NCBI RefSeq assembly: GCF_002843315.1
Contig: NZ_MVDD01000004.1
Span: 124,001-188,000 of the forward strand
Source: Labilibaculum filiforme
GTDB lineage: Bacteria; Bacteroidota; Bacteroidia; Bacteroidales; Marinifilaceae
Direction of reading: 5' to 3'
DNA: 64,000 nt
Part shown: positions 7,029 through 24,351 of the stretch, in pieces
Layout: each line of letters opens with the position of its first letter
Position numbering within the stretch: the stretch's first letter is position 1
Notes under the pieces: generated by a model
Databases searched by the model: none
Told to the model about the DNA's origin: nothing
What the model saw: the letters and a program-made list of their open reading frames with translations, nothing else
Position numbers and translations under genes: made by a program

Positions 7029-9678
<2,650 letters not shown>

Positions 9679-17697: not shown

Positions 17698-19326
17698 ATG
17701 AACTCTATTTTTAAGCCTAAATTATTCACTGTACTAAAAGATTACAATTTTCAAGCCTTTCAAAAGGATTTGTTTGCAGGAATTATTGTAGGTATCGTTG
17801 CGCTTCCTTTAGCCATTGCTTTTGCGGTTGCTTCAGGTGTTTCACCAGAAAAAGGTTTAATTACAGCAATTATTGCCGGTTTTTTAATATCACTTTTGGG
17901 TGGTAGTCGTGTTCAAATTGGTGGACCTACGGGAGCTTTTATCGTAATTGTTTACGGTATCGTTAATCAATACGGAATTGATGGTTTAATGATTTCGACC
18001 TTTTTAGCAGGAGTTATCCTTATTCTGTTTGGCGTATTGCGTATGGGTGCAGTTTTAAAATTTATTCCGCATCCTCTAATTGTAGGGTTTACGTCGGGTA
18101 TTGCCTTAGTCATTTTTTCTACGCAAATCAAAGCTGCTTTTGGTTTAGATCTTGCGGAAGTTCCTTCAGAATTTCTCGCTAAATGGGCTTGCTACTTCGC
18201 AAATATTTCAAGTTTAAATATTTCTGCCGTAATCATTAGTGGAGGTACAATCTTATTAACATTATTCTCTGGCAAATTAATTCCAAAAATACCTGGTTCT
18301 TTTATCGCAATTATTGCAATGACAGCCTTGGTACAAATCTTCGGTTTGCAGGTTGATACCATTGAATCGGTATATGGAAGCATTCCTAATACATTTAGCT
18401 TTGATATGCCTACAGTGGATTGGACCAATCTACCCAACTATTTTCAACCAGCCATTACCATCGCTATTTTAGGAGCTATAGAATCTCTTTTATCCGCAGT
18501 AGTTGCCGACGGTATGATTGGTGGTAATCACCGATCCAACACAGAATTGATAGCACAGGGAATTGCAAATATATTCTCTCCTATTTTTGGTGGAATTCCT
18601 GCTACGGGGGCAATTGCCAGAACTGCAACCAACGTTAAAAATGGTGGACGCACGCCAGTTGCTGGTATAATTCATGCATTCACGCTACTACTTATAATGT
18701 TAGTGTTTGGACAATGGGCAAAATTAATTCCAATGTCGTGTTTAGCAGGTATTCTAATTGTTGTTTCCTATAATATGAGTGAATGGAGATCCTTTCGATC
18801 TATTTTAAAAGGAACCCGATTCGATACTATTGTTTTGCTTACTACCTTCTTTTTAACCGTACTGGTAGATTTAACCATCGCTATTGAAATGGGAATTGTA
18901 TTATCATCTCTAATTTTCATGTATCGTATGTCAAAAATCAATGGCATAATACCACTAGAATCAGAATCGGATGAAATTCAGAATTACAATCAAATCCCTA
19001 AACAAATAGAGATCTACGAAATTAGCGGTCCGTTCTTTTTTGCTGCTGCTAAAAGATATCAGGAAACCCTTCGCGATCTAAAAAGTTCTACGTCGATACT
19101 AATTATTCGAATGCGTCACGTTCCTTTTATGGATACAACCGGAGTTCGAAATTTTATCGAAATAATTAAGGATCTGAAAATTAGAAAAACAAAAGTGATT
19201 TTATCCGGAGTAAATTCCGAAGTATTGAAAGAACTTCAGAATAGTGAGATTCACAATTTAATAAGTGAAGAATTCATCTTCAACAATTTCGATGAAGCAC
19301 TTGAAGTTGCTAAAAAATCCTTATAA
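17698..19326 (+). CDS. SulP family anion permease with STAS domain
   Basis: 542 aa. The transmembrane core (about 20-410, roughly 12-14 helices) carries the SulP signatures VGIVALPLAIAFAVASGVSP and GGSRVQIGGPTGAF. A cytosolic STAS domain follows (about 440-542; MRHVPFMDTTGV marks its conserved loop). Members import sulfate, bicarbonate or other anions, often with Na+ or H+. No cysteine biosynthesis genes or carbonic anhydrase are nearby, so the anion is undecided. Single gene with its own leader and a downstream terminator. Confidence 0.92.
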   Translation: MNSIFKPKLFTVLKDYNFQAFQKDLFAGIIVGIVALPLAIAFAVASGVSPEKGLITAIIAGFLISLLGGSRVQIGGPTGAFIVIVYGIVNQYGIDGLMISTFLAGVILILFGVLRMGAVLKFIPHPLIVGFTSGIALVIFSTQIKAAFGLDLAEVPSEFLAKWACYFANISSLNISAVIISGGTILLTLFSGKLIPKIPGSFIAIIAMTALVQIFGLQVDTIESVYGSIPNTFSFDMPTVDWTNLPNYFQPAITIAILGAIESLLSAVVADGMIGGNHRSNTELIAQGIANIFSPIFGGIPATGAIARTATNVKNGGRTPVAGIIHAFTLLLIMLVFGQWAKLIPMSCLAGILIVVSYNMSEWRSFRSILKGTRFDTIVLLTTFFLTVLVDLTIAIEMGIVLSSLIFMYRMSKINGIIPLESESDEIQNYNQIPKQIEIYEISGPFFFAAAKRYQETLRDLKSSTSILIIRMRHVPFMDTTGVRNFIEIIKDLKIRKTKVILSGVNSEVLKELQNSEIHNLISEEFIFNNFDEALEVAKKSL

Positions 19327-19524: not shown

Positions 19525-19941
19525 TTATTGTGCCAACTCAAATGCTTCTTTAAGCGCATTCACAATTATATCGGGCACTACATGTGGTTTTCGTGTTTTA
19601 CCATTTACAAATACAAGCGTAGATGTTGCTGTGCAGGTTTTTTCATAGTTCCCATTTTCGAATTCGAATTCAAATTTAAAGCGAGCCTTTGGCAATTCTT
19701 TTATTCTAGTTCGAACCGTCAACTCTTCATCATAACCTGTTGGTTTCAAATACTTTAGATTCATTTCGATAACCGGAAGCATTATATTATTCTCCTCCAA
19801 CACTTTATCATTTATACCAAATTGCCGTAACAATTCAGTTCGTGCCAGATGACAATAATTAACGTAGTTGGCATGATATACATAGCCCATTTGGTCTACC
19901 TCATCATATCTAGGCCTTATTTTACATTCGCCAATAATCAT
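19525..19941 (-). CDS. Acyl-CoA thioesterase, 4HBT/YbgC-like hot-dog fold
   Basis: 138 aa from the ATG at 19941; a longer frame from 19980 would overlap the preceding ATPase by 43 bases, while the chosen start gives an ATGA overlap and begins MIIGECKIRPRYDEVDQMG. The motif YDEVDQMGYVYHANYVNYC contains the catalytic Asp of the YbgC/FadM type. The family hydrolyses acyl-CoA thioesters in the cytoplasm. It is the last gene of the ATPase/NifX cluster and translationally coupled to it. Whether it serves that system or is a passenger is unknown. Confidence 0.85.
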   Translation of the reverse strand: MIIGECKIRPRYDEVDQMGYVYHANYVNYCHLARTELLRQFGINDKVLEENNIMLPVIEMNLKYLKPTGYDEELTVRTRIKELPKARFKFEFEFENGNYEKTCTATSTLVFVNGKTRKPHVVPDIIVNALKEAFELAQ

Positions 19942-20825
19942 TGTTCTATTTTTTGTTCCGAACTGGCAACTTCCTTCCAAAGTTCCGATAGAATAATTCC
20001 AATTTCAGATTCTTTATTATACTCCAAAATTGTCTTTTTTGCTACCATCGAATGAACTACATCTTCGGAAAAAGGAAGTTTTCCCATTAGCTTAATGTCT
20101 TGTGATGCAAAAAAACTTTCCATTTGATTGCATATATCCAAATTAATATCAAATTTATTGATTAATGCATACATTGGAATTTTAAACGACTGTACCAATT
20201 CAACCAGACGTACTACATCATGAAATCCAGATTTACTTGGCTCTGTAATCAGAATTACAGCATCGGCTCCAGTGATTGAAGCAATTGCTGCACAACCAAT
20301 TCCTGGAGGTCCATCGTTTAAAATATAGTCTGCATTCTTTGCTTTGGCTATTTCTTTTGCGCTTTTTCGGATTTGAGTTACCAATTTACCCGAATTCTCT
20401 TCCCCTGGTCCCATTTTAGCATGAACCAATGGTCCAAAACGCGTATCGGACACGTACCAAAAATTATTCGTACTTCGCTCCGAACTAATTGCTCCTACAG
20501 GACATACACGTTCGCAAAGACGACAGCCTTCGCAAGCAAACGAATCGATTTCCAATCCACCACCCGTTTTAAAATTAATAGCATCAAATTTACAATGCTC
20601 TCTGCAAAGTCCACAATTGGTACATAAATCAGTATCAATAGAAGCAACCCAAGCCCCATCAAACACATGAGTTTCTTTATTTTCTGGTTGAAAAATAATG
20701 TGAAGATCCGCTGCGTCAACATCAGCATCTACAAAAACAGTATTTTCAATCACAGAAGCTAAGGCTGCCGTTATACTTGTTTTCCCGGTACCGCCTTTTC
20801 CACTTAATATTGTTATGTCCTTCAT
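19938..20825 (-). CDS. MinD/Mrp-type P-loop ATPase with 2x[4Fe-4S] ferredoxin insert (copy 2)
   Basis: 295 aa from the ATG at 20825 (an ATG at 20834 also exists). A deviant Walker A, SGKGGTGKTS, opens the protein. A bacterial-ferredoxin insert follows with two CX2CX2CX3C clusters (CTNCGLCREHC and CEGCRLCERVC). The later motif NDGPPGIGC belongs to the ATPase core. Such proteins are soluble ATPases linked to Fe-S or metal cofactor handling; in Desulfovibrio, paralogues form part of the ORP complex. It is encoded next to a sister ATPase with a similar layout, so a heterodimer is plausible. Confidence 0.9.
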   Translation of the reverse strand: MKDITILSGKGGTGKTSITAALASVIENTVFVDADVDAADLHIIFQPENKETHVFDGAWVASIDTDLCTNCGLCREHCKFDAINFKTGGGLEIDSFACEGCRLCERVCPVGAISSERSTNNFWYVSDTRFGPLVHAKMGPGEENSGKLVTQIRKSAKEIAKAKNADYILNDGPPGIGCAAIASITGADAVILITEPSKSGFHDVVRLVELVQSFKIPMYALINKFDINLDICNQMESFFASQDIKLMGKLPFSEDVVHSMVAKKTILEYNKESEIGIILSELWKEVASSEQKIEQ

Positions 20826-20826
20826 A

Positions 20827-21696
20827 TTATTCATTCAATTTTTGCAAATATGCCACCACTTTACGATATTCTTTCGCAAACTGAAGAGGCACACAGCTCA
20901 CAATTTTTCCTTTTGCATACAAACTTGCATACTCCTTACTAAAAGGAATTTCGCCCAACAATTGGATACCTTCCGCTTTCAAATATTCATATACTTCAGA
21001 ATCTCCTAATCCGGCTTTATTTACAAAAACACCAAAAGGTTTATCCACCTCGCGCAATAAATCAACGGTAAGTTTTAAGTCATATACTCCAAATGGAGTC
21101 GGTTCTGTAACCAAAATCACAAAATCGGCATCCGAGATGGTTTCAACAACCGGACAGCTAGTACCTGGAGGTGCATCATAAATCAGAACATCATTTTCAA
21201 CAACTAAATTCCTCTTTACATCCTTAATTAACATTGTCTGTAAGGGAGAACCAACTCTCAAATTGCCCTCCATCAAACTTCTATCATTCCCTATATTGTA
21301 ATCGGTAATGGTTCCAATAGCATTTGTAGTTTCATGAATTGCATCAAACTGACAAGCCACAAAACAAGCTCCACAAGAATGACACAAATCCTTATTCACA
21401 GTAGCATACTGCATAGTAGGCATCATTACAATTGCATTAAATTCACAATACTCTTCGCATTTTTTACAAAACGTACACTTCGAAGTATCAATTTCAGGAA
21501 TCACTTGAACCGATGCCTTCTCACTGGTAACCGAAACGTTCCGAAAGAACAAAAGATCATTTGGTTCCTCTACATCGCAATCGACCAATTGTACTTTTCT
21601 TGTCCAATTTTCATTGATCGAAGAAAACAAATTCACTGCAAATGTTGTTTTTCCAGTTCCTCCTTTGCCACTTGCAATGGCTATTTTAAATGCCAT
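20827..21696 (-). CDS. MinD/Mrp-type P-loop ATPase with 2x[4Fe-4S] ferredoxin insert (copy 1)
   Basis: 289 aa. Walker A is ASGKGGTGKTT (8-18). The insert has Cys74/77/80/84 and Cys105/108/111/115, enough for two [4Fe-4S] clusters. YDAPPGTSCPV is the switch-region motif. It starts 16 bases inside the DUF89 gene with a strong AGGAGGGG ribosome site, rare among the genes here. With copy 2 it makes the paired ATPases characteristic of ORP-type clusters. Nucleotide-dependent loading of a metal or Fe-S cofactor onto the NifX-like neighbours is inferred, not shown. Confidence 0.9.
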   Translation of the reverse strand: MAFKIAIASGKGGTGKTTFAVNLFSSINENWTRKVQLVDCDVEEPNDLLFFRNVSVTSEKASVQVIPEIDTSKCTFCKKCEEYCEFNAIVMMPTMQYATVNKDLCHSCGACFVACQFDAIHETTNAIGTITDYNIGNDRSLMEGNLRVGSPLQTMLIKDVKRNLVVENDVLIYDAPPGTSCPVVETISDADFVILVTEPTPFGVYDLKLTVDLLREVDKPFGVFVNKAGLGDSEVYEYLKAEGIQLLGEIPFSKEYASLYAKGKIVSCVPLQFAKEYRKVVAYLQKLNE

Positions 21697-22547
21697 AAAC
21701 TCCCCTCCTGTTTTTTTGTAATTACTAAATCTCCCTTACTCACACCCAACAATTCAGCTATTATATCGCATTTAGCCATCAGCATAAAATAAAGTGATTT
21801 TCTTTTTTCATTTAGCAAGCCTTCAAAATTCCCTTGTCCTTTAGAAATAACCACATCGGCCTTTTTAAACAGCTCCTGAAACTCCTCAGAACAATTGTCT
21901 ACTAAGGTGGAAGGTGCATCATGTCCATTCGATATCACCCTGCAAACATCCTGCATACCAACTTGACTAGCATCCTCAAGGGTAACATCATTAATTATAG
22001 GTGCTCCCCGAACTACATAGCATAAGTTAGGATGATTTAAATGCTGAATAAAAAGCTTATCGAAAACTATTTCGCCCGCATTATCACCTAAATACAAGAC
22101 AGATTGCGCTTGCTTGATTTCAGCAAACATCTCGTTTCTATCGTCTAATATGAAATCAAGGGAAAGTAATTCTTGAATTTTAGCTGGAATATCTGTGGGA
22201 ACACTATGAGCTCCATAATCAATAATATTTCCAACAACTGCTAATTTTGCTGCTATATGAAAAGGTTCCTTATGCGTTTCTACAAATGCATTCCAATTTT
22301 CATATTGCGAATACAAAACTGAATTGGCATATTGTTTCTCTTCGCGATACAGATCATCACTTTGGATCCTTTTTTTCGCCAAGCGATGAATTAATAATGC
22401 CAAATAAGGATTAGAGAGATGACTACAATTTGTCAATAAATGATCTACTTCAGAGGAGAAATTACTTGCAACTTCCCCCTGAAGTTTAAATTTTTTAATT
22501 AATAAATCTACCGTTTTAGAATGGCAAGCCAAACACCTACTATCCAT
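21681..22547 (-). CDS. DUF89 / ARMT1-like metal-dependent phosphatase family protein
   Basis: 288 aa from the ATG at 22547 (a frame from 22562 adds five residues and overlaps the NifX gene). It begins MDSRCLAC, the N-terminal Cys motif of prokaryotic DUF89 proteins. The family metal and active-site motifs are visible: LGDNAGEIVFDKL (D155/N156), IINDVT (N186/D187), SNGHDAPST and SKGQGNFEG. DUF89 members are damage-control phosphatases on metabolites with Mn, Co or Ni dependence; the substrate here is unknown. It lies between NifX and the two ATPases, two bases after the former and overlapping the latter. Confidence 0.85.
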   Translation of the reverse strand: MDSRCLACHSKTVDLLIKKFKLQGEVASNFSSEVDHLLTNCSHLSNPYLALLIHRLAKKRIQSDDLYREEKQYANSVLYSQYENWNAFVETHKEPFHIAAKLAVVGNIIDYGAHSVPTDIPAKIQELLSLDFILDDRNEMFAEIKQAQSVLYLGDNAGEIVFDKLFIQHLNHPNLCYVVRGAPIINDVTLEDASQVGMQDVCRVISNGHDAPSTLVDNCSEEFQELFKKADVVISKGQGNFEGLLNEKRKSLYFMLMAKCDIIAELLGVSKGDLVITKKQEGSLWHLK

Positions 22548-22549
22548 AT

Positions 22550-22888
22550 TTAGTGATCGCAATAATTAGCAGTAAAACTTAAGCTTTTATTCAAAAAGCC
22601 ATTTACCAGCTCAACAGCACTTATTTGTGGAGCTCCGACAAATACATTTACATTGTGCTGATTAAAAATCTGAATGGCTCTATTTCCCATTCCACCAGCA
22701 ATAACGTCGGTAACTCCTAAATCGGCTAAAAATGGAGGCAACAAACCTGGCTCGTGTGGTGGTGCGGCAACTAGCTCTTCAGCAACAATACTGTTATCAG
22801 CAATATCAAGTAGCGCAAAATGAGAGCAATGTCCAAAATGTCCATCCAAAATTCCATCTTTAACAGGAACTGCAATTTTCTTTTTCAT
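22550..22888 (-). CDS. NifX/NifB-type dinitrogenase cofactor-binding domain protein (copy 1)
   Basis: 112 aa single-domain Nitro_FeMo-Co fold (PF02579), like the orange protein and NafY/NifX. Visible motifs: HFGHCSHFALLDI near the N-terminus and VIAGGMGNRAIQIFNQHNVN. A histidine-rich patch (residues 17-23 region and PPHEPG) could bind a metal cluster. No nitrogenase genes occur in the window, so a role in nitrogen fixation is unlikely. By analogy with ORP it may carry a Mo/Cu or Fe-S cluster; that is inference. Confidence 0.88.
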   Translation of the reverse strand: MKKKIAVPVKDGILDGHFGHCSHFALLDIADNSIVAEELVAAPPHEPGLLPPFLADLGVTDVIAGGMGNRAIQIFNQHNVNVFVGAPQISAVELVNGFLNKSLSFTANYCDH

Positions 22889-22891
22889 ATG

Positions 22892-22930
22892 TTAATGATT
22901 TGTTTTTAAGTTATATGTGAAACTTACCAT
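22892..22930 (-). CDS. Candidate 12-codon leader peptide upstream of NifX-like gene
   Basis: ATG at 22928-22930 followed by 11 codons (peptide MVSFTYNLKTNH) and TAA, ending three bases before the NifX start. It is preceded by GGAGGAGG with a seven-base gap to the ATG, a much stronger ribosome site than most genes here have. It could feed ribosomes into NifX by termination-reinitiation. The short length means chance is possible; alternatively the SD may serve NifX from a distance. Confidence 0.35.
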   Translation of the reverse strand: MVSFTYNLKTNH

Positions 22931-23063
22931 ACTGATATCCTCCTCCGCTATGTCAAAATAATTTTAGCAGGGACGGTTCCTAGTGTTTCAAAAAGTTTAC
23001 TTCACCCTAAACAAAAAAGGAACCTTATTTTATTTACAACTTATTCATTTAGGGAAAATACAA

Positions 23064-23116
23064 CACAAGAAGTCCAGTTGCCATACAATAAAATTGATAA
23101 CAAGTAACTTCTTGTG
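23064..23116 (-). repeat. 10-bp perfect inverted repeat between the two halves of the cluster
   Basis: CACAAGAAGT (23064-23073) and ACTTCTTGTG (23107-23116) are perfect arms separated by 33 bases, 48 bases past the DUF5320 stop. A second looser pair, GGTTCC (22976-22981) with GGAACC (23029-23034), lies nearby. Either could be a processing or attenuation structure separating the upstream four genes from the downstream five; there is no clear T-run. Confidence 0.35.
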
Positions 23117-23163
23117 CTTCTTACTAATCAGGATACATTCTCATGAAGCCTATGAATAAATAT

Positions 23164-23367
23164 CTAGTCGTTCATTTTCCTTCGTCCGAGTCCCATTCTT
23201 CCGCCTCGTCCACGACCTAAACCTAATCCTTGTCCTCTACCTCTTCCTCTGGTTTCTTCCTGAGCTTCATTTTCTCTATCCGTTTTCTCGTTGGCTTTAC
23301 ATTGGCCCATTCCTCTTCCGGTTCTGGAACCTTTTCCTTCCGGACCTTTTCGATCTAACCCTGGCAT
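23164..23367 (-). CDS. Small glycine/arginine-rich DUF5320-like protein (b)
   Basis: 67 aa starting MPGLDRKGPEGKGSRTGRGM, the standard DUF5320 opening (G-P-x-G-x-G-x-x-T/S-G-R-G). The rest is a charged linker and a Gly/Arg/Leu tail of low complexity. An ideal AAAGGAGGTT Shine-Dalgarno sits five bases before the ATG. Proteins of this type accompany NifX-like and Mrp-like genes in anaerobes; the function is unknown. Confidence 0.82.
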   Translation of the reverse strand: MPGLDRKGPEGKGSRTGRGMGQCKANEKTDRENEAQEETRGRGRGQGLGLGRGRGGRMGLGRRKMND

Positions 23368-23380
23368 ATCAACCTCCTTT

Positions 23381-23566
23381 TTAAATTGATTTACTACTTT
23401 TTAATCTTTTTCCTTGTCCTTTACCACAACCACTCTTCCGTTTTAAGCCCAAACCTTTTCCTAACTTCTCCATCAGCGTGTTTTGGTCTACTTCAGAACA
23501 ATTTCCCAATCCTCTTCCCGATTTTGAACCTTCTCCTCTTGGTCCTTTTCCATCTAAGTGTGCCAT
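23381..23566 (-). CDS. Small DUF5320-like protein (a)
   Basis: 61 aa, paralogous in its first 22 residues to the next gene (MAHLDGKGPRGEGSKSGRGL), then a helical segment and a basic tail with single Cys residues at CSEV and SGCGKG. It lies 10 bases after the NifX-like copy 2 stop and 13 bases before its sister gene. No Shine-Dalgarno is visible, unlike its neighbour. Function unknown. Confidence 0.8.
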   Translation of the reverse strand: MAHLDGKGPRGEGSKSGRGLGNCSEVDQNTLMEKLGKGLGLKRKSGCGKGQGKRLKSSKSI

Positions 23567-23576
23567 AATAAATTCA

Positions 23577-23894
23577 TTAAGATTTCAATTGATTTATAAT
23601 GTGTTGCACTGTATTATTATCATTTTGCAACAACACCATTTGAATATTAAACTTTTCAAGCAATTCTTTTGCTTTAGGGCCAAAATCGCCTGAAATTACT
23701 TTTTGAACTCCTAGTTCAACTACCTTTTCAACAGTTTTAGTACCTGCTCCACTTTGTGCATTGATATTTTCATTTTCAACGAAACTAACTTCACCTGATT
23801 GATCATCGTACAAACAAAACCAACTTGCTCTTCCAAAACGTAAATCAAAAATTGAACTCAATTGGTTTCCTGTTGATGTAATAATTGTCTTCAT
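23577..23894 (-). CDS. NifX/NifB-type dinitrogenase cofactor-binding domain protein (copy 2)
   Basis: 105 aa Nitro_FeMo-Co domain. The N-terminal strand MKTIITSTGNQLSSIFDLRF and the central VQKVISGDFGPKAKELLEKF are typical. It diverges from copy 1 and lacks its histidine patch, so the two may have different partners. It is four bases downstream of the DUF134 regulator and doubtless co-transcribed with it. Confidence 0.85.
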   Translation of the reverse strand: MKTIITSTGNQLSSIFDLRFGRASWFCLYDDQSGEVSFVENENINAQSGAGTKTVEKVVELGVQKVISGDFGPKAKELLEKFNIQMVLLQNDNNTVQHIINQLKS

Positions 23895-23898
23895 ATTC

Positions 23899-24309
23899 CT
23901 ATTTATTTATTAATTCGATATTTTTGGAGTTACAAGCAGGACAAATTTCTTTTTCCATTGTTGCTGGAATATTAAACCTAGCATTACACTTCGAACACAG
24001 ATACCAATCCTTATCCATTACTGCATTTCCATAAACTGTTTTTATCTCTTTTGCTTCAACTAAGGCCGCGGCAATTTTTCTTCGGGCACTTTCGTAGATT
24101 CTCGCAAATGTTGGCCTTGATATGCCCATTAATTCTGCAGCCTCATTGTGTTTTAAAAAATCGTAATCGGCTAACTTTAATGCTTCATATTCTTCATAAA
24201 GTAAATCGATAGATTTTCGACTTTTAGAATTCACACCAAAGGGCCTGTACCCTTTAAATCGTGGAGGCTCCACAACTTTTCGCAATCTTATTTTTCTTGG
24301 CATAGGCAA
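23899..24309 (-). CDS. DUF134 family transcriptional regulator
   Basis: 136 aa. An N-terminal helix-turn-helix resembling sigma region 4 (about 55-79, NEAAELMGISRPTFARIYES) is followed by a zinc-ribbon tail with Cys105, Cys108, Cys123 and Cys126. The start at 24309 (MPMPRK) has an in-frame alternative at 24303. Its promoter carries an 18-bp palindrome, so autoregulation is likely. First gene of the NifX/ATPase cluster and presumably its local regulator. Signal unknown; the zinc ribbon could sense metal or redox state. Confidence 0.88.
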   Translation of the reverse strand: MPMPRKIRLRKVVEPPRFKGYRPFGVNSKSRKSIDLLYEEYEALKLADYDFLKHNEAAELMGISRPTFARIYESARRKIAAALVEAKEIKTVYGNAVMDKDWYLCSKCNARFNIPATMEKEICPACNSKNIELINK

Positions 24310-24319
24310 TTATTTTATA

Positions 24320-24351
24320 CAAAGATAATGAGAATATTCTCATTTCACAAA
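24320..24351 (-). promoter_or_regulatory. Promoter of the DUF134 cluster (TTTG-N20-TATCTTTG)
   Basis: On the minus strand TTTG (24351-24348) and TATCTTTG (24327-24320) are 20 bases apart, a canonical Bacteroidota promoter. The -7 element ends only 10 bases before the 24309 ATG, so the mRNA leader is very short. Confidence 0.75.
24327..24344. promoter_or_regulatory. 18-bp perfect palindrome, likely operator
   Basis: AATGAGAATATTCTCATT is a perfect palindrome lying between the -33 and -7 elements, overlapping the latter by one base. A repressor bound here would block RNA polymerase. The half-site TGAGAAT is the same as in the PerR box at 9699, but the spacing is 7-0-7 rather than 7-1-7, so either DUF134 or a Fur-family protein could bind. 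Confidence 0.65.

Follow-up and report, generated by a model that had tools for sequence, protein, structure and literature searches.

In the genome of Labilibaculum filiforme, nine consecutive minus-strand genes were found at positions 24309-19525 of a 64,000-nt stretch (the window, by which the whole analysed stretch is meant). As judged from their sequences, these genes make up an operon of the orange-protein (ORP) type, a kind that is conserved widely and is proposed to make or hold metal-sulfide clusters in bacteria that live at low oxygen; here it has added genes and a switch. The DUF134 protein encoded by the first gene is probably a DNA switch of a kind not described before, whose mark is also found at some genes for sulfur metabolism outside the operon. 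The reading that we favour, with somewhat better than even confidence, is that this Bacteroidota operon serves to assemble or hold metal-sulfide clusters and that its expression is controlled jointly with that of some genes for sulfane-sulfur metabolism and molybdoenzymes. In some relatives, the same 14-base switch marks genes of sulfane-sulfur reduction, molybdoenzymes and iron-sulfur (Fe-S) carriers. A defined palindrome, a probable regulator and a set of co-marked genes constitute a direct handle on the role of the orange-protein complex, and these are the first leads for DUF134 and DUF5320.

Gene content and conservation

The order of transcription is DUF134, NifX2, DUF5320a, DUF5320b, a 275-base gap (22889-23163), NifX1, DUF89, MinD_A, MinD_B and thioesterase, and all other junctions show spacing of a few bases or overlap. 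An earlier note on this DNA had described nine consecutive minus-strand genes with this single sizeable gap, and both the coordinates and the family matches agree with it. All nine proteins match named families above the Pfam cut-offs: DUF134 (71 bits), PF02579 twice (54 and 58), DUF5320 twice (41 and 42), ARMT1/DUF89 (200), a 4HBT_2 thioesterase (71) and two P-loop ATPases (CbiA/ParA families) with two Fer4 stretches apiece. By reading, the likely starts differ slightly from those of the mechanical open reading frames (ORFs) for DUF134 (ATG 24303), DUF89 (ATG 22547) and the thioesterase (ATG 19941, which gives a 4-base overlap with the MinD_B stop). The assignment of the DNA to Bacteroidota was also right, the nearest named records among the matches listed being Labilibaculum and a Marinifilaceae metagenome-assembled genome; the closest named genus among them is represented by Labilibaculum sp. 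K2S, whose DUF134 is 93% identical to that of the window.

The locus was followed in relatives in two ways. Among 198 genomes of the same order, DUF89 matches were present in 45, DUF5320 matches in 73 and both in 33 (Fisher p = 1.6e-8, uncorrected for shared ancestry). A single scan of named genomes with a DUF134 alignment gave at least 562 relatives, and the best 80 loci, some of which end at contig ends, all belong by record title to Bacteroidota, Chlorobiota or Ignavibacteriota. These 80 carry NifX (79), ferredoxin-type ATPase (65), DUF5320 (59), DUF89 (33) and thioesterase (32) genes. In the 67 loci with at least 6 kb downstream, NifX was found in 66 (two copies in 50, three in one), the ATPase pair in 56, DUF5320 in 52, the thioesterase in 30 and DUF89 in 26. 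Gene order is mostly the same in relatives, and both set and order are kept in records of Bacteroidota, Chlorobiota and Ignavibacteriota. The 20 longer stretches examined around DUF89 matches mostly read DUF134-NifX-DUF5320(-DUF5320)-NifX-DUF89-MinD_A-MinD_B, followed in 9/20 by a separate gene for a ferredoxin-less Mrp-type ATPase and, in several, by a thioesterase; a few (e.g. L052 and L061) have DUF89 but not the remaining genes. Chance clustering was rejected on the kept order, the co-occurrence test and the DUF134-locus counts. The co-occurrence of the DUF134, DUF5320, NifX, DUF89 and MinD-ferredoxin genes, which the earlier note had set as a test, is thus well above chance in both the 198-genome and the 80-locus counts. 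Other genes in or beside the operons encode a CGGC protein, a ZIP transporter, a CoA-disulfide-reductase-like flavoprotein, a peroxiredoxin, a radical SAM protein, CobO, a metallo-beta-lactamase-fold protein and DUF169.

Kinship to the orange-protein complex

MinD_A (20827-21696) and MinD_B (19938-20834), the first and second of the pair, are P-loop ATPases with an inserted ferredoxin of two [4Fe-4S] motifs; two CxxCxxCxxxC motifs were present in 76/76 MinD_A and 79/79 MinD_B ORFs. A quick tree of 112 rows placed Mrp proteins in one clade (support 100), with MinD_A and MinD_B outside it, and separated the first-position (support 95) and second-position (99) ATPases as two clades, A and B. Three rows scored as MinD_B fell in clade A, each of them a first-position gene. 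A Peptoclostridium, an Acetoanaerobium and a Chloroflexota member are found in both clades; as read from this tree, the two clades are old. Classing the ATPases as Mrp/ApbC/NBP35 carriers was rejected because both branch outside the Mrp clade; branching with ordinary Mrp/ApbC Fe-S carriers, which the earlier note had named as a refuting outcome, was not seen.

The ORP core, in a definition attributed to Maiti et al. 2016, is said to be a NifX-fold orange-protein-like gene adjoining two ferredoxin-bearing ATPases, and just such a NifX gene stands beside two ferredoxin-bearing ATPases in the window. A plasmid search gave three records outside Bacteroidota. In Peptoclostridium acidaminophilum (EAL2_RS11320-11300) the order is DUF134-NifX-ATPase-ATPase-MrpORP, the MrpORP scoring 465 bits against a cut-off of 450, and in the quick tree the ATPase pair of this MrpORP-linked locus lies inside clades A and B. 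The ORP-like nature of the cluster, as first proposed, is therefore upheld by the gene set and by ATPase clades shared with an MrpORP-linked locus.

The orange-protein complex of Desulfovibrio comprises Orp3, Orp4, Orp5, Orp8 and Orp9/MrpORP (PMC6345978, in excerpt). There, the apo Orp3-Orp4-Orp8 complex receives an Fe-S cluster from the Mrp domain of MrpORP (same excerpt), and the suggestion that the ATPases load the NifX proteins is not supported in the direction stated, since the Desulfovibrio transfer starts from the Mrp domain.

The two NifX proteins are of different kinds. NifX2 (23577-23894) has a NifX fold of the TM1290/MTH1175/orange-protein type without the HFGHC motif, scores 30 bits against the Desulfovibrio gigas orange protein (2wfb) and outscores NifX1 against both MTH1175 and the orange protein. 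NifX1 (22550-22888) resembles the C-terminal Di-Nase domain of MrpORP and carries GHFGHC and CDH motifs; against the NCBIfam MrpORP model NF041136 (Mrp fused to Di-Nase, at least 450 bits) it matches the C-terminal third only, at positions 264-365 with 113 bits. CXHFGHCE and CDH are features of the MrpORP Di-Nase domain (PMC6345978, in excerpt). In the NifX1 class, which as scored takes in some NifX2-like ORFs, HFG[HR]C was found in 86/115 and a C[DN]H close to the protein end in 88/115; the HFGHC motif occurred in 0/88 NifX2-class ORFs. On these sequence grounds NifX2 is orange-protein-like and NifX1 corresponds to the detached Di-Nase half of MrpORP. The doubling of NifX noted earlier thus stands as to copy number, but the copies are not alike, one kind having the HFGHC/CDH motifs and the other lacking them. 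A further HFGHC-type NifX with a Cys/His-rich end is encoded elsewhere in the same genome (L193:4595-4966), and similar proteins lie inside the operon in L055 and L059.

DUF5320a (23381-23566) and DUF5320b (23164-23367, with an RGRG-rich tail) are short cationic Gly-rich proteins. Their doubling is likewise real as two genes, which by eye are of different types. The 92 DUF5320 ORFs (some from the same contigs) have a median length of 64.5, a median net charge of +8 and 25% Gly; Cys is present in 91/92, and by eye they share an N-terminal TGPxGxGxxTGRxxGxC-like motif, longer relatives being extended by GRG repeats rich in Phe/Tyr and by another C-terminal stretch. In Pyrococcus IssA, a NifX-fold domain binds iron and sulfide, and a cationic tail rich in Gly and aromatic residues is proposed to bind thioferrate (PMC5524996, in excerpt). 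A single chain combining both elements is absent from the window, where NifX1 and NifX2 are tail-less. One relative, L230, has such a chain, made of a NifX domain (45 bits) and a 57-residue RGG tail (39% Gly, net +10) and encoded by the third gene after a ferredoxin gene next to a palindrome. In a search with this chain, alignments in several genomes ran across the NifX/DUF5320 stop codon, which is suggestive only, because the tail is of low complexity. By analogy, the DUF5320 proteins may act in trans as cationic tails of the IssA type.

Two further proteins belong to the set. The conserved Asp-Asn and Asp motifs of DUF89 phosphatases have a catalytic role. The window protein (21681-22562) matches this DUF89/ARMT1-type metal-dependent family of damage-control phosphatases at 200 bits and has DNAGE and NDVT, and its relatives show DN.GE in 49/50 and [NS]D.T..DA in 36/50. 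The last gene (19525-19980) encodes a YbgC/FadM-type hot-dog thioesterase by its 4HBT_2 match.

The DUF134 gene and its palindrome

An upstream alignment of 12 Marinifilaceae revealed a conserved block at the DUF134 promoter, the perfect palindrome TGAGAATATTCTCA, which is a candidate DUF134 operator. It lies between TTTG and TAnnTTTG boxes 20 bases apart, which correspond to the -33/-7-type consensus boxes of Bacteroidota promoters. In the window, the palindrome occupies 24329-24342 (no strand) and is the sole site at up to two mismatches, flanked on the minus strand by TTTG (24348-24351) and by the -7-type box TATCTTTG (24320-24327), which is aligned in relatives. Among 96 DUF134 upstream regions, which are partly dependent (L046/L114 and L049/L123 are from the same contigs, and L143m/L144m share the L143/L144 intergenic stretch), 85 have TGAGAATATTCTCA at up to two mismatches (71 exact), 7 have a variant close to TGAACATATGTTCA and 4 have neither.

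The DUF134 protein (23899-24309) combines a sigma-region-4-like helix-turn-helix (HTH) with a C-terminal part holding four Cys that are invariant in 27 sequences and zinc-ribbon-like. One recognition-helix residue, where readable, is Ala with the main motif in 82/82 and Thr with the variant in 6/7; in a predicted model (mean pLDDT 72) it lies in the last helix of the HTH. Many of the best solved-structure matches of this model are sigma-factor region 4 domains, none of them with E < 0.001. The position of the palindrome over the DUF134 promoter, together with its recurrence at sulfur and molybdoenzyme genes, makes DUF134 a probable autoregulator with a link to genes for sulfane-sulfur metabolism and molybdoenzymes. 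Among the papers listed from the open-licence literature for DUF5320, DUF134 and UPF0251/COG1342/PF02001, none concerned their function, judged by the title or the opening of the abstract, and a 'DUF134' in PMC10434189 is in fact DUF1349.

Palindrome sites were then counted genome-wide in 68 genomes (21 + 47), picked for holding a DUF134 locus and not for the pattern. The 21 genomes contained 31 exact sites (reversed pattern 0) and 40 of the 47 further genomes contained 60 (reversed pattern 1), a total of 91 against 1, with a chance expectation of about 0.05 per 5 Mb. In the seven genomes of the 47 without an exact site, the DUF134 upstream regions carry one-mismatch forms. By contig coordinates, a DUF134 match in 17 of the first 21 loci and a reading of L226 and L233, 75 of the 91 exact sites were assigned to operons of the DUF134 type. 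The 16 off-operon sites include pairs (i) 5' of a gene for a flavoprotein of the persulfide-reductase type (L218 and L220), whose orthologue in the L. filiforme genome has CoA-disulfide reductase (CoADR), rhodanese, TusA and DsrE domains, (ii) between mobA and a PhsA-like gene (L219 and L225), (iii) upstream of Mrp genes (about 200-250 bases in L222 and about 40 in L223) and (iv) ahead of DUF5320 genes that stand alone (L207, and L221, where DUF4405 is the neighbour). The L230 site lies between a Mut7-C gene and a ferredoxin gene, about 170 bases ahead of the latter, and the L227 site is upstream of an MFS transporter. The molybdoenzyme is named PhsA-like only, because it scores 487 bits against the 694 required by the PhsA thiosulfate reductase model NF012032.

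In the L. filiforme genome, the 16-base form has three exact sites, at the nine-gene operon, in the mobA/PhsA-like intergenic region and at a DUF1847 gene; the CoADR flavoprotein gene has a site with one mismatch upstream, and a peroxiredoxin gene has one with two mismatches. Two DUF1847 genes are present in this genome (L189:4635-5129 and L194:6841-7314), and the exact palindrome lies upstream of one of them, while another PF02579 protein is encoded a few genes away from the second. Sites at up to two mismatches precede 7/16 CoADR orthologues (five Labilibaculum-like and two Marinifilum genomes; the CoADR/PhsA-like sample left out flavoproteins more distant than these and the G517 copy, which is broken) and 5/20 PhsA-like genes, that is 5 of the 14 closest, in the same five Labilibaculum-like genomes. 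The corresponding null, 78/4000 windows, overstates chance because it was drawn from stretches containing true sites. The earlier statement that no client enzyme is present is right for the nine genes but calls for revision, as in Labilibaculum the palindrome also stands upstream of a PhsA-like molybdoenzyme and a CoADR-type flavoprotein. In L276 (G520) and L277 (G495, Ancylomarina euxinus), the CoADR flavoprotein gene is preceded by the variant TGAACATATGTTCA although the DUF134 promoter has the main motif, so a second regulator is likely there. As a second search key the variant was dropped, since a scan of 9 genomes gave a single exact match, which lies at its own operon.

The first part of the 275-base gap (minus strand) is a long predicted hairpin (23045-23163) between the operon halves. 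It is kept in four close relatives, 6/34 of its pairs have a row changed on both sides, and it is perhaps an attenuator or a processing site; no Rfam family reached its gathering score, and a known RNA element was rejected. Just 5' of NifX1, a 12-codon reading frame (22930-22892) has a strong Shine-Dalgarno-like GGAGGAGG, and the region of this frame is poorly conserved across four aligned relatives. Outside the operon, a SulP-like transporter gene (17698-19326, named by eye) faces the operon end and is matched in 13/80 relatives' loci, and a catalase-peroxidase gene adjoins a Fur/PerR-like regulator gene (7029-9678, by eye).

Proposed mechanism, alternatives and known systems

What the sequences show directly is the gene content and its conservation, the ATPase clades, and the palindrome with its further sites. 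We infer the following scheme, from binding by DUF134, its signal and repression to the metal and each biochemical step. DUF134 would bind the palindrome over its own promoter and repress it, and the repression would be lifted by sulfide, polysulfide or a thiometallate sensed through its Cys4 zinc ribbon. MinD_A and MinD_B would form a heterodimer with four [4Fe-4S] clusters, as Orp3/Orp4; NifX1 would take up or pass on clusters via Cys/His ligands, and NifX2 would hold an anionic metal-sulfide cluster without cysteine ligands. The polycationic DUF5320 proteins could wrap the NifX2 cluster, as proposed for the cationic tail of IssA around thioferrate, while DUF89 and the thioesterase might clean up phosphorylated or thioester by-products. 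Isolates of Labilibaculum, Ancylomarina and Lutibacter grew at up to 7 mM sulfide (PMC11129491, in excerpt), which fits a sulfur-linked switch. A bolder and rather doubtful extension makes DUF134 (UPF0251) the founder of a regulator family that senses sulfur or thiometallates; in bacteria, the IssA-type protein for storing thioferrate or thiomolybdate would have been split into a NifX core and detachable polycationic DUF5320 tails, charged by the ferredoxin-ATPase pair. If so, the operon would buffer Fe, Mo or Cu sulfides, and the co-regulated persulfide reductase and molybdoenzyme would run sulfur respiration.

Several observations weigh against the reading of a metal-sulfide operon with a sulfur-linked switch. 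As to ORP kinship, the tree program flagged that long branches join between the Mrp and MinD_B rows, the window operon has neither an Mrp gene nor a fused MrpORP, and the evidence for orthology to Orp3/4/8 consists of the MrpORP model match, a single Peptoclostridium locus and a 30-bit score against the D. gigas orange protein. DUF89 and the thioesterase occur often but do not belong to the core, as no copy was found in 41/67 and 37/67 loci, respectively. A NifX with a tail in cis was seen once (L230) among 181 NifX ORFs, and the DUF5320 tails are of low complexity, their likeness to the IssA tail being chemical, with descent unproven. As to the switch, three of the four DUF134 genes with neither motif have Ala and one has Thr; five off-operon sites look like chance (L217, L228, L229 and L232 in reading frames, L234 beside an unrelated gene); and the L231 site lies about 550 bases from the related ferredoxin gene to which it is linked. 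In the L. filiforme genome, the 16-base form at up to two mismatches gave 11 sites against 3 for the reversed control, only 3 of them exact, and conservation of the site upstream of sulfur genes is largely a Labilibaculum feature.

The alternative that survives best, possible though short of probable, is a pure iron-sulfur system, in which NifX and DUF5320 store a thioferrate-like particle, the ATPases deliver Fe-S and molybdenum has no role. It would be in keeping with IssA, whose NifX fold and cationic Gly-rich tail store thioferrate (PMC5524996, in excerpt), with MrpORP, which binds and transfers Fe-S (PMC6345978, in excerpt), with Mrp genes that in some relatives lie within the operon or have the palindrome upstream, and with the ferredoxin gene ahead of the cis NifX-RGG gene in L230. 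However, the Labilibaculum palindrome is also found between mobA and a molybdopterin enzyme; the higher scores of NifX2 than NifX1 against MTH1175 and the orange protein are a weak point against it, because MTH1175 is itself IssA-like.

It is unlikely that another regulator binds the palindrome, with DUF134 as a passenger or a different kind of effector. In favour of this, genes matching a Crp/Fnr-type profile lie in 10/80 loci, and the Ancylomarina genome and another of Marinifilaceae have the variant at CoADR and the main motif at DUF134; yet 75/91 exact sites are at DUF134-type operons and the motif variants go with the DUF134 recognition-helix residue. We consider it equally improbable that the DUF5320 proteins bind nucleic acids in the RGG manner or form condensates, with no metal-sulfide link: their tails are RGG-like, of low complexity and cationic, but the nearly universal Cys, the N-terminal motif seen by eye, the position beside NifX in most loci and the one cis NifX-RGG chain argue otherwise. 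That the ATPases are positioning proteins of a complex acting in polar localisation or cell division is very improbable, since, despite their MinD-type family matches and the polar localisation of MrpORP and cell-division proposal for the Desulfovibrio complex (PMC6345978, in excerpt), the nameable off-operon and accessory genes concern sulfur, redox or metal cofactors, with no division gene among them.

Among known systems, nitrogenase cofactor assembly shares the PF02579 fold (NifX/NafY/NifB). It was rejected as an explanation because the nine genes include no nif structural or assembly gene (the remainder of the window was checked by eye only), and the off-operon sites point to sulfur and molybdopterin enzymes. 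At the level of sequence, the operon is like IssA/IssX of Pyrococcus furiosus (PMC5524996, in excerpt) in combining a NifX fold with a cationic Gly-rich tail, in cis in L230, but differs in that its tail-like proteins are encoded separately and have a Cys motif of their own. It shares with the Peptoclostridium acidaminophilum locus the order DUF134-NifX-ATPase-ATPase and an orthologous ATPase pair, whereas MrpORP is fused there and DUF5320, DUF89 and thioesterase are not annotated. Compared with the Desulfovibrio ORP system, MrpORP is split, its Mrp half being absent from the window operon and a separate gene in some relatives; the DUF5320 pair, DUF89 and the thioesterase are additions; and DUF134 with a palindrome over a Bacteroidota-type promoter stands in place of the sigma-54 control described for Desulfovibrio (PMC6345978, in excerpt).

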